From Coralliovum pocilloporae (GTDB taxonomy: Bacteria; Pseudomonadota; Alphaproteobacteria; Rhizobiales; Cohaesibacteraceae): 64,000 nt of DNA. Under the pieces are notes generated by a model that worked only from the letters and a program-made list of their open reading frames with translations, had not been told where the DNA came from and searched no databases. The stretch lies in contig NZ_CP132542.1 of NCBI RefSeq assembly GCF_030845175.1, positions 2,267,501 to 2,331,500 on the forward strand, given 5' to 3'. The stretch's first letter is position 1. Every line of letters starts with the position of its first letter. This document shows positions 11,630 through 13,852 of the stretch, one piece after another. The position numbers and the translations under genes are program-made.

Positions 11630-12325
11630 TCAGGCGCGGGCCATGCGGGAGGCCACATAGTCCCAGTTGACCAGCTTGTCGACGAAGGCCGCGATATACT
11701 CCTTGCGGCGATTGCGGTAGTCCACGTAATAGGCATGCTCCCAGACATCGACGCCGAGAAGCGGCATCATGTCATCGACCAGCGGGTTTTCACCATTTGG
11801 AGTGGACGTGACAACCAGCTTGCCGGATTTGTTGATTGAGAGCCAGCCCCAACCTGATCCGAACTGGCCGCCGGAAACCTTGATGAACTGGTCACGGAAG
11901 GCTTCAAAACTTCCGAAGTCAGCCTTGATCGCTTTTTCAAGAGAGCCAGGCATGCCAGTGCCACGCGGGGTCATCATTTTCCAGAATTCGGAATGGTTCC
12001 AGTGCTGGCCGGCATTGTTGAGGACCACCTGATATTTGCCACGATCTGCAGCTGCAGCCTTGACGATCTCTTCAAGAGACAAGCCATCCAGTTTCGAACC
12101 CGGGATCAGCTTGTTGAGGTTTCGGGCATAGCTGGCGGCATGTTTGCTGTGGTGCAACTCCATGGTCTCGGCACCGATGACGGGAGACAGCGCGTCATAG
12201 CTGTAATCCAGCTTGGGCAGGGAGAAAGCTTCGCCAGCAAGGGCTCTGTGGGTAAATGAGGGGGCACCGGCAATGAGCAGGCCTGCGCCGGTTGCGGTGA
12301 GAAACTTGCGACGGGACATGGTCAT
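11630..12325 (-). CDS. Superoxide dismutase (Fe/Mn family) with Tat signal, exported
   Basis: 231 residues. Fe/Mn superoxide dismutase fold with all four metal ligands visible: the His in TMELHHSKHAASY, the His in HWNHSEFW, and Asp and His in DVWEHAYYVDYRN. The N-terminus MSRRKFLTATGAGLLIAG with RALA cleavage is a twin-arginine signal, so the enzyme is folded with its metal in the cytoplasm and exported. That is uncommon for this family. The ATG at 12319 is an equally good start. The cytosolic paralogue is at 52533-53132. Likely role: removal of superoxide in the periplasm. Confidence 0.92.
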   Translation of the reverse strand: MTMSRRKFLTATGAGLLIAGAPSFTHRALAGEAFSLPKLDYSYDALSPVIGAETMELHHSKHAASYARNLNKLIPGSKLDGLSLEEIVKAAAADRGKYQVVLNNAGQHWNHSEFWKMMTPRGTGMPGSLEKAIKADFGSFEAFRDQFIKVSGGQFGSGWGWLSINKSGKLVVTSTPNGENPLVDDMMPLLGVDVWEHAYYVDYRNRRKEYIAAFVDKLVNWDYVASRMARA

Positions 12326-12447
12326 CTGGAATTCCTTTCCGTTGTCTGTCTCGGGAGGGGACAGATGACCGGTAAACAGTTTGCTGATTTTTTTATTCAG
12401 GAAAAGGAATGTGCAGATTGTCGCAGGCGGGAGAGGGCAGGCTTGCC

Positions 12448-12765
12448 TTATCGGCGCATGGCCTGTTTCAGCCGGAAAGCATCAGACGGCCAGCGTGCCA
12501 CGAGAGCGGCAAAGAGGCCTTCATCCATGGCGATGGTGCAGCCGGAGAGGTGAAGTTCTGCCCAATGCGCAAGCCTCAGGCTGCGCTGGCGCTCGGACCA
12601 TGCCTGTCTCTGTCCCAGTACCATTGCGTCTTTCAGGGAAAGGCAGCGGCATTTGAGGCCGCTTTTCAGCGCAAGGCATTCCGTCTCGCTTGGCTTCTGA
12701 TGCGACCATGAAACGGGTTCAGCATCCAGTCCGCCGGGATAATCCCGCGAAAGGGCGTCAGACAT
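12448..12765 (-). CDS. Small hypothetical protein downstream of a structured leader
   Basis: 105 residues from the ATG at 12765. I recognise no family. The start is chosen because GGAGG lies 8 bases upstream, separated by a run of eight T. This same GGAGG forms the 3' arm of a hairpin that looks like a Rho-independent terminator, so translation may depend on the hairpin opening. The protein has no signal peptide. It is rich in Leu, Trp and Arg and carries a CRCLSLKDAM segment and a helical C-terminus (LFAALVARWPSDAFRLKQAM). Codon use is like its neighbours, supporting a real gene. It precedes the exported SOD on the same strand with a 122-base gap. Confidence 0.55.
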   Translation of the reverse strand: MSDALSRDYPGGLDAEPVSWSHQKPSETECLALKSGLKCRCLSLKDAMVLGQRQAWSERQRSLRLAHWAELHLSGCTIAMDEGLFAALVARWPSDAFRLKQAMRR

Positions 12766-12896
12766 AAAAAAAACCTCCATCGGTTTTAACCGTGGAGGGC
12801 TGGCTGTTCGCTCTGTTGCTTCCCAAAGAAGCCACATCTCACCGAAGTGACGACCACCTTGCCGCGACAGGCAGGTTGGCGAGGGCGCCAGCCCTT
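12766..12896 (-). ncRNA. Candidate structured RNA (leader or sRNA) ending in an intrinsic terminator
   Basis: Read on the minus strand, a 9-bp outer stem (AGGGCTGGC at 12895-12887 with GCCAGCCCT at 12804-12796) encloses three small hairpins. These are CCTGCC with GGCAAGG (12875-12857), TCAC-TTCG-GTGA (12850-12839, a stable UUCG loop) and GCTTC with GAAGC (12832-12818). A terminator follows at once: CCTCCACGGT with ACCGATGGAGG (one bulge, 12798-12774) and eight T. The outer stem and terminator share two bases, so their pairing partly competes. The T run ends at the ATG of the next gene. It could be an attenuating leader of that gene or a free sRNA of about 130 nt. It does not match a family that I can name. 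Confidence 0.6.
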
Positions 12897-12979
12897 CTCT
12901 TGATGATTTAGTCTCATTTGCCAGATACGAACAGGAAATTCAAGTCACATTCTTGTGCCGTATTGTGCTGGAACCCGCG

Positions 12980-13852
12980 TCAGTCAGGCCGCTTGGCGGA
13001 ATAACGTTGCTCGGCTTCATAGTAATCATTGAAGCCCACCCGGTCTTTCAATTCCTCAAACGGCAGGATCAGATCCTCGGTGGTAGCCTCGTCTTTCAAC
13101 CGGTCGAGCGCTTCTGTCATTGCCTTCATGGCAGCAGACAGGAGTGTCAGCGGATAGGCCGAAAGCTTGAAGCCCATTTCCCCCAGAGCCTGATGTCCGA
13201 GAAGAGGTGTCTTGCCGCCCTCCAGCATATTGGCCAGATGAGGGCCGGGAGCGCTTCGTCCGATCTCCTTCATTTCCTCGACAGATTGCGGGGCTTCCAC
13301 AAACAGGATGTCGGCACCGATCTCACGGAAAAGATTAGCCCGCTCAATGGCCTCTCCCAGTCCATGCTGATGGCGGGCATCGGTACGGGCAAGGATCAGA
13401 ATATCCGCGCCTGTGTTCCGGGCATGAACGGCAGCCCGAATGCGGTCCAGCGCCTCGTCCCGCTCCACAACAAGCTTGCCCTTTGTGTGTCCGCAGCGTT
13501 TCGGAGCCACCTGATCCTCAAGCATGATGGCAGCGAAACCGGCCTGGGCATAGGCTCTGACCGTGCGTTCCACATTCAGAGGATTGCCATAGCCCGTATC
13601 GCCGTCGCCAATGACCGGAATAGACACTGACGCGCAGATATTCCGCCCCTGGTCCGCCATCTCGGCAAAGGAGATCAGGCCCGTATCCGGTGCGCCTATG
13701 CGGCTGGCGGAGACGCCGAAGCCGCTCATGAAGGCAACAGGAAATCCGGCCTGTTCGATCAGCCGTGCCGAAAGCGCATCAAATGCGCAGGGCATGGTCT
13801 GGCAGCCGGGGGCATCAAGAAGAGATCTGAGACGGGATACGGATGTGGTCAT
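12980..13852 (-). CDS. Isocitrate lyase / PEP mutase family enzyme
   Basis: 290 residues, the usual length for the family. It forms the TIM barrel of the PEP mutase/isocitrate lyase superfamily, which makes or breaks C-C or P-C bonds next to a carboxylate with Mg2+. Visible: PCAFDALSARL near the N-terminus, the metal-binding GDGDTGYG, LEDQVAPKRCGHTKGK with the catalytic loop Cys, and LARTDARHQHGL. The KRCGH loop is the sign of a lyase (isocitrate, 2-methylisocitrate or oxaloacetate-type) rather than a PEP mutase. Substrate cannot be fixed, and no prp genes are adjacent. Propionyl-CoA handled by the methylmalonyl-CoA mutase in this window would be a different route. Confidence 0.85.
   Translation of the reverse strand: MTTSVSRLRSLLDAPGCQTMPCAFDALSARLIEQAGFPVAFMSGFGVSASRIGAPDTGLISFAEMADQGRNICASVSIPVIGDGDTGYGNPLNVERTVRAYAQAGFAAIMLEDQVAPKRCGHTKGKLVVERDEALDRIRAAVHARNTGADILILARTDARHQHGLGEAIERANLFREIGADILFVEAPQSVEEMKEIGRSAPGPHLANMLEGGKTPLLGHQALGEMGFKLSAYPLTLLSAAMKAMTEALDRLKDEATTEDLILPFEELKDRVGFNDYYEAEQRYSAKRPD

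Follow-up and report, generated by a model that had tools for sequence, protein, structure and literature searches.

The 64,000-nt stretch of the Coralliovum pocilloporae genome analysed here, referred to as the window, contains on its minus strand a structured RNA that is, by its sequence, a member of the known SAM-I/IV riboswitch class (Rfam RF01725), and binding of S-adenosylmethionine (SAM) is predicted for it. This riboswitch would likely turn the small orphan gene that follows it off when SAM is plentiful. We infer the ligand and the direction of the switch from the riboswitch family; the complementarity between P2 and a downstream anti-P2 element and the hiding of the SD sequence are based on sequence, covariation and fold models. 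The parts of the leader and its gene are, in window positions:

12916-12944, minus strand: promoter-like sequence, with CTTGAA at 12944-12939, 17 nt, and GCAAAT at 12921-12916
12804-12911, minus strand: SAM-I/IV aptamer (Rfam RF01725)
12902-12906, minus strand: P1 5′ strand, UCAUC (Rfam alignment)
12838-12834, minus strand: P1 3′ strand, GAUGU, pairing with UCAUC; the outermost pair is non-standard
12882-12895, minus strand: P2, AGGGC-UGGC-GCCCU (Rfam alignment)
12854-12879, minus strand: P3 with the conserved CCAACC ... AAGGUGG core (Rfam alignment)
12839-12850, minus strand: P4 hairpin with a UUCG loop
12818-12832, minus strand: P5 hairpin
12808-12811, minus strand: PK-2 3′ strand, GCGA, pairing over 4 bp with the P3 loop UCGC at 12867-12864
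12796-12804, minus strand: anti-P2 element, GCCAGCCCU, complementary to 12895-12887
12774-12798, minus strand: SD-hiding, terminator-like hairpin with GGAGG (12778-12774) in its 3′ arm
12766-12773, minus strand: U8 run between SD and ATG, variable among relatives
12448-12765, minus strand: 105-codon ORF for a 105-aa protein of an unnamed family

The class assignment is carried by the Rfam covariance model RF01725, which is aligned over its full length (model positions 1-99) to 12911-12804 of the minus strand and scores 60.2 bits (E 2e-7), the gathering score being 41.1 bits. This is the best match within the Rfam clan and the sole RF01725 match at E ≤ 0.001 in the window's genome. An earlier note on the same DNA had reported no match to SAM landmarks, a statement that is overturned by this score; the Rfam/Infernal search suggested there does return a match, namely to the SAM-I/IV riboswitch. 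The class had been overlooked because the 9-bp stem that was taken for a closing stem is not one of the aptamer's helices. According to excerpts of the respective papers, an undivided P2 is the mark of SAM-I/IV and a P2 internal loop that of SAM-I (PMC2864571), while the presence of P4 separates SAM-I/IV from SAM-IV (PMC6890682). In the window RNA, P2 is undivided (12895-12882) with one bulge at its foot, and P4 is found at 12850-12839, which is the hairpin with a UUCG loop that had been noticed before. A SAM-I riboswitch was considered and rejected, as the P2 internal loop of that class is absent and the window P2 is a single short helix with a tetraloop and one bulge.

A pseudoknot, PK-2, between the P3 loop and the 3′ tail is a further feature of the SAM-I/IV class, and its occurrence in the window RNA, where the tail was set by hand, is what we take to be another likeness to that class. 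Over 56 distinct loop/tail combinations, PK-2 comprises on average 4.30 bp, versus 3.66 bp for swapped combinations with a maximum of 4.0 in 500 swaps; in the anchored register, PK-2 does not exceed 3 bp in 23 of 75 loci. The core letters CAU(C)-AAGAG, CAACC, GGUG, AUG-GG and CA of RF01725 are present in the window RNA according to the Rfam alignment, whereas two A with strong conservation in the model, located in P2 loop and P4 region, have no counterpart. These two positions, as well as a target that is not a recognised methionine gene, would fit an aptamer that has come to recognise a different ligand of the SAM group (e.g., S-adenosylhomocysteine) or none at all, with the fold alone being kept. 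Such a drift is very unlikely, given that the first four of the core stretches are matched and that the riboswitch is present in all 20 searched genomes of the window's own family.

All elements described in the earlier note are present, and they are located on the minus strand, which had not been named there. Folding energy is of little help in this regard. On the minus strand, a fold as good as that of native 12896-12766 is reached by 4 of 200 dinucleotide shuffles (z -2.56), and with flanks included the value drops to z -1.65 (13 of 200 shuffles as good); the plus strand of the same stretch folds better still (z -4.20). Since the plus strand folds at least as well, the strand call is based on the Rfam match and the gene and makes no use of folding energy.

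Across the order, the RF01725 model has 80 matching sites, spread over 77 of 397 genomes. The gene that follows encodes the small protein in 43 cases, MetA and a beta-eliminating lyase in 15 cases each (identities that rest on Pfam, the HTS family for MetA, for one member each), an ORF of 49-53 aa in two cases and a DUF3293 protein in one; four of the 80 sites were counted without a target gene. Thus, metA or the lyase gene follows in 30 of the 80 loci of the order, and the window riboswitch precedes the unnamed protein.

Some of these loci deserve separate mention. The beta-eliminating lyase resembles threonine aldolase, and a SAM switch before this gene, found at 15 loci in three families (L067, L068, L071-L073, L079, L081, L082, L084-L086, L089, L093, L094 and L096), is unexpected. 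In genome G056, three SAM-I/IV riboswitches are found (L019, L045 and L047), two of them before the ORF of 49-53 aa. In genome G086, the riboswitch of L046, of which L020 is a second copy, lies directly before the gene for the DUF3293 protein and has, by eye, a different but complementary anti-P2.

The 105-residue ORF at 12765-12448 had been described as encoding an unknown protein, and this description stands: searches of Pfam, NCBIfam and PHROGs gave no match, and domain matches of single members at E 0.055 or weaker were taken as chance. The best hit of a PDB sequence search had E 0.095. An AlphaFold model with five helices (mean pLDDT 88.4) gave a best E of 4.1 in a fold search of the PDB with Foldseek, and the best VIA-align Z of 2.3 among 41 chains compared neither shows nor excludes a structural relative. 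With the single sequence as query, the protein was matched in 17 of 61 genomes, its own included, and an alignment-based search matched it in 44 of the 397 genomes of the order. The riboswitch lies upstream of the small gene in 43 of these 44; the match in the remaining one (E 5.5e-4) is marginal and probably due to chance. In hhalign comparisons, the profile built for the window's family matches those of both other families (probability 96, E about 3e-9). Pairwise dN/dS among five equally long relatives amounts to 0.09-0.33 in nine of ten pairs, the tenth being without nonsynonymous change, and because of these low values the ORF very likely encodes a real protein. At L042 in genome G017, the small gene is split into two frames, giving two partial matches, due to either pseudogene formation or a sequencing error.

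The proposed switch hinges on a pairing that competes with P2. The 9-bp stem of the earlier note does exist, AGGGCUGGC (12895-12887) being paired with GCCAGCCCU (12804-12796), albeit not as the closing stem of the element: 12895-12887 constitutes the P2 5′ arm and loop in the Rfam alignment, so that the stem is an alternative to P2. The free fold of 12896-12766 contains this stem together with the last hairpin, and presumably the stem represents the ligand-free state, as an alternative to the aptamer. Stem and hairpin had been said to share two bases; the actual overlap is three (12798-12796), and because of it anti-P2 pairing and the SD-hiding hairpin compete. Watson-Crick complementarity of the first 40 nt to the 51-nt platform extends over nine nt at most, a length that is reached by 9 of 2000 shuffles.

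In the relatives, the nine P2:anti-P2 pairs are complete in 44 of 46 loci, a count of sequences and not of independent events, comprising the 43 small-gene loci and three loci with other small ORFs. One of the misses, L046, was scored one register off with three pairs and was kept as a miss; inspected by eye, it shows eight pairs, of a different sequence. At pair 8, G-C occurs in 34 loci and A-U in 11, and the A-U loci form two groups, namely nine small-gene loci belonging to a single genus and both loci with an ORF of 49-53 aa. Pairs 2 and 4 vary between G-C and G-U, with 27 and 19 loci, respectively, at pair 2 and 7 and 39 at pair 4. The anchored count covers 46 of the 80 loci; the 30 metA and lyase loci are without anchor and entered the energy test only, and L020, L047, L059 and L095, which have no assigned target, were excluded from both. 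In the energy test, in which P2 strands were swapped among 20 types, the own P2 came first in 27 of 43 small-gene loci, as against 2 of 15 metA and 3 of 15 lyase loci. The covariance analysis that had been called for thus yields compensatory changes in the nine pairs. The swap test is clear for the small-gene class and unclear for the metA and lyase classes, and it is for the small-gene class that the P2-pairing design is supported.

Downstream of the aptamer, GGAGG (12778-12774), eight nt before the ATG at 12765, and the eight T at 12773-12766 are as the earlier note had them. Its 10-bp terminator stem does have ten pairs; these are interrupted, as 6 + 4 with one bulged A. When P1 and P2 are imposed on the window RNA, GGAGG is 0.00 unpaired, and when P2:anti-P2 is imposed, it is on average 0.41 unpaired. 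The shortened hairpin remains in the anti-P2 state, and therefore the SD would be freed in part only. In a model that includes neither ligand nor pseudoknot, the ensemble energy of the anti-P2 state is 3.1 kcal/mol below that of the aptamer state. For three relatives, the energy differences between the states are -1.3, -1.6 and +1.0 kcal/mol, where P2 without P1 was imposed as the aptamer in the relative with -1.6 kcal/mol, L069. For the L037 RNA, the aptamer state comes out slightly ahead, with a free ensemble 6-7 kcal/mol below either of the constrained states. Local folding assigns the window SD an accessibility of 0.00, which is below that of all 15 other starts of long ORFs in the window (mean 0.37), these control starts being those of mechanically called ORFs. 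Hence, the riboswitch probably hides the ribosome binding site of the small protein gene.

Much of the hairpin being retained in the modelled anti-P2 state, the opposite direction has to be considered, in which SAM would turn the gene on, the anti-P2 state hiding the SD and the aptamer state freeing it. In all four RNAs modelled (window and three relatives), however, the SD is less accessible in the aptamer state, and the metA gene that follows this class in relatives is biosynthetic and thus expected to be repressed by SAM; activation by SAM is therefore highly improbable.

For repression by SAM, the preferred reading, the sequence of events would be as follows. The leader would begin at its own promoter just before the aptamer. 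With SAM bound, as predicted, P1, P2, P3 and PK-2 would be held, according to what is known of the class; the anti-P2 element would be free, the hairpin at 12798-12774 would close fully, GGAGG would be buried and translation would be off. When SAM is scarce, GCCAGCCCU would invade P2 at AGGGCUGGC and thereby take three bases from the foot of the hairpin, by which part of GGAGG would be freed and the 105-aa protein would be made. Due to the U8 run in the window, the same hairpin might also stop transcription just before the start codon. Confidence in this switch is not placed higher for two reasons. Firstly, the SD is mostly paired (0.09 unpaired) in the unconstrained fold, and the best fold including coding bases corresponds to neither state, the P2 5′ strand being partly paired with codons of the gene; secondly, there are the two unmatched A of the aptamer.

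Whether transcription is affected as well bears on the earlier proposal of a riboswitch or attenuator with combined control. Of this proposal, the cis-acting riboswitch that hides a ribosome binding site is retained, and the transcriptional layer is possible. As an addition to SD hiding, hairpin and U8 would serve as intrinsic terminator and SD sequestrator at once, with read-through transcripts still being untranslated; such dual control is quite conceivable, if at somewhat less than an even chance. A Rho-independent terminator would have a GC-rich, unbroken stem and a U run; here, the hairpin with its ten pairs is directly followed by U8, and SD + U6 + ATG is a rare arrangement, with 14 sites in 31 genomes (0 to 3 per genome, two in the window's genome). 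On the other hand, an SD with a U-rich spacer and ATG is thus also present at another site in the window's genome, and the stem is interrupted by the bulged A. Because of this bulge, the hairpin is not listed in a terminator scan of 12300-13100, which requires an uninterrupted stem.

A DNA pattern built for the hairpin matched 57 records, labelled Stappia, Roseibium/Labrenzia, Pseudovibrio, Pannonibacter and Hongsoonwoonella, besides a few broadly labelled bins. By a simple pattern, the aptamer is seen upstream in 55 of them; in the other two, the match is near the end of the stored stretch and the upstream part is cut off. Of these 57 loci, 38 have a U run of at least five residues and 19 a short or broken one; among the 43 loci retrieved by the aptamer model, 19 have a run of at least five. 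By eye, all 18 members of genus g3 in the window's family show a different hairpin and a U run below five. Since hairpin and hidden SD are conserved while the U run varies, SD hiding is what stays the same throughout, and termination would at most be a further layer that some species have, perhaps including that of the window. The existence of relatives with and without U run makes the two layers separable by experiment. In many Roseibium/Labrenzia relatives (L056, L091, L099, L104 and others), the likely start codon is a TTG that overlaps the U run. The second GGAGG + T7 + ATG start in the window's genome is located on the plus strand of contig 1 at 2614759-2614773.

Transcription of the leader probably starts from a promoter of its own just before the aptamer. 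In 19 of the 43 small-gene loci, a CTTGA motif is found upstream of the aptamer at either of two neighbouring offsets, compared with 2.5 anywhere in the region in shuffles. The -10 part, GCAAAT, is weak and was assigned by eye, and a consensus promoter scan listed no promoter. A promoter-like sequence just upstream and a terminator-like end would also be expected of a stand-alone sRNA of about 140 nt with a terminator that merely abuts the gene, which had been put forward as the second reading in the earlier note. That reading is abandoned here as exceedingly improbable; the match to RF01725 and the joint occurrence of riboswitch and downstream protein family in 43 genomes speak against it, as does the U run, which is not conserved.

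Comparison with known systems, drawn from parts of the cited papers, places the window RNA as follows. With SAM-I/IV riboswitches (RF01725; Weinberg 2010, PMC2864571), it has in common the core sequence, the undivided P2 and P3, P4 and P5, but its platform is complementary to P2 and its target is an unnamed small protein. SAM-IV (PMC6890682) shares the SAM-binding core and PK-2 with P5, and differs by a split P2a/P2b, by PK-1 and by the lack of P4, whereas the window RNA has P4 and an undivided P2. The SAM-I riboswitch of the Xanthomonas met operon (PMC7270179), likewise from a Gram-negative bacterium, resembles the window system in the control by SAM mainly of translation and in the anti-SD hairpin, and its anti-SD stem reportedly exists without SAM, as the model suggests for the window; according to that excerpt, the system does without a Rho-independent terminator. 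It differs in the SAM-I aptamer, in the target, which is the met operon, and in the sensing of initiator tRNA by the platform. In Alphaproteobacteria, control of methionine genes by SAM in Rhizobiales/Hyphomicrobiales is also exerted by SAM-II (SAM_alpha, RF00521; PMC4239095), which belongs to another Rfam family and has another target gene than the window RNA. One copy of SAM-II is found elsewhere in the window's genome, before a metZ-like gene (named by eye).

The switch itself is ordinary, and what is new is modest, namely the target family and the P2-pairing platform with the SD inside a terminator-like hairpin. A literature search over titles and beginnings of abstracts found no paper on the small gene or on the platform, of which an earlier description may exist. 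The design is compact, as an SD in a terminator-like hairpin would be opened by P2 pairing. Moreover, a riboswitch is a strong functional label, by which a protein family that is absent from the libraries scanned is tied to the SAM/methionine status; this family spans a large, mostly marine group (with the labels Stappia, Roseibium/Labrenzia, Pseudovibrio and Pannonibacter) and the window's own family.

As to the role of the protein, MetA was found in none of the 17 genomes tested out of the 43 with small gene and riboswitch, and a MetX-like enzyme in all 17; MetA was found in all seven tested genomes with the riboswitch before metA and in none of four tested lyase genomes, with no match of the MetA and MetX searches reaching the cut-offs of NCBIfam. 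It is tentatively suggested, as a possibility well short of a probable one, that the small, fast-evolving, mostly helical protein, which occurs in three Hyphomicrobiales families and nowhere else in the genomes searched, would be an effector of methionine starvation at low SAM that adjusts the MetX/MetZ route or the use of SAM; it would be controlled by a P2-invasion switch in which a single hairpin would lock the SD and, in some species, also terminate transcription.

No operon partner of the small gene stood out among the 22 commonest neighbour clusters (ORFs of at least 100 aa), and the neighbours thus gave no function for the small protein. The commonest immediate downstream neighbour lies on the opposite strand (27 of 57 named loci). 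In the window, the small gene is flanked on the same strand by two genes with weak matches, upstream (12980-13852, minus strand) to an enzyme of the PEP mutase/isocitrate lyase superfamily and downstream (11630-12325, minus strand) to an Fe/Mn superoxide dismutase, perhaps with a Tat signal.
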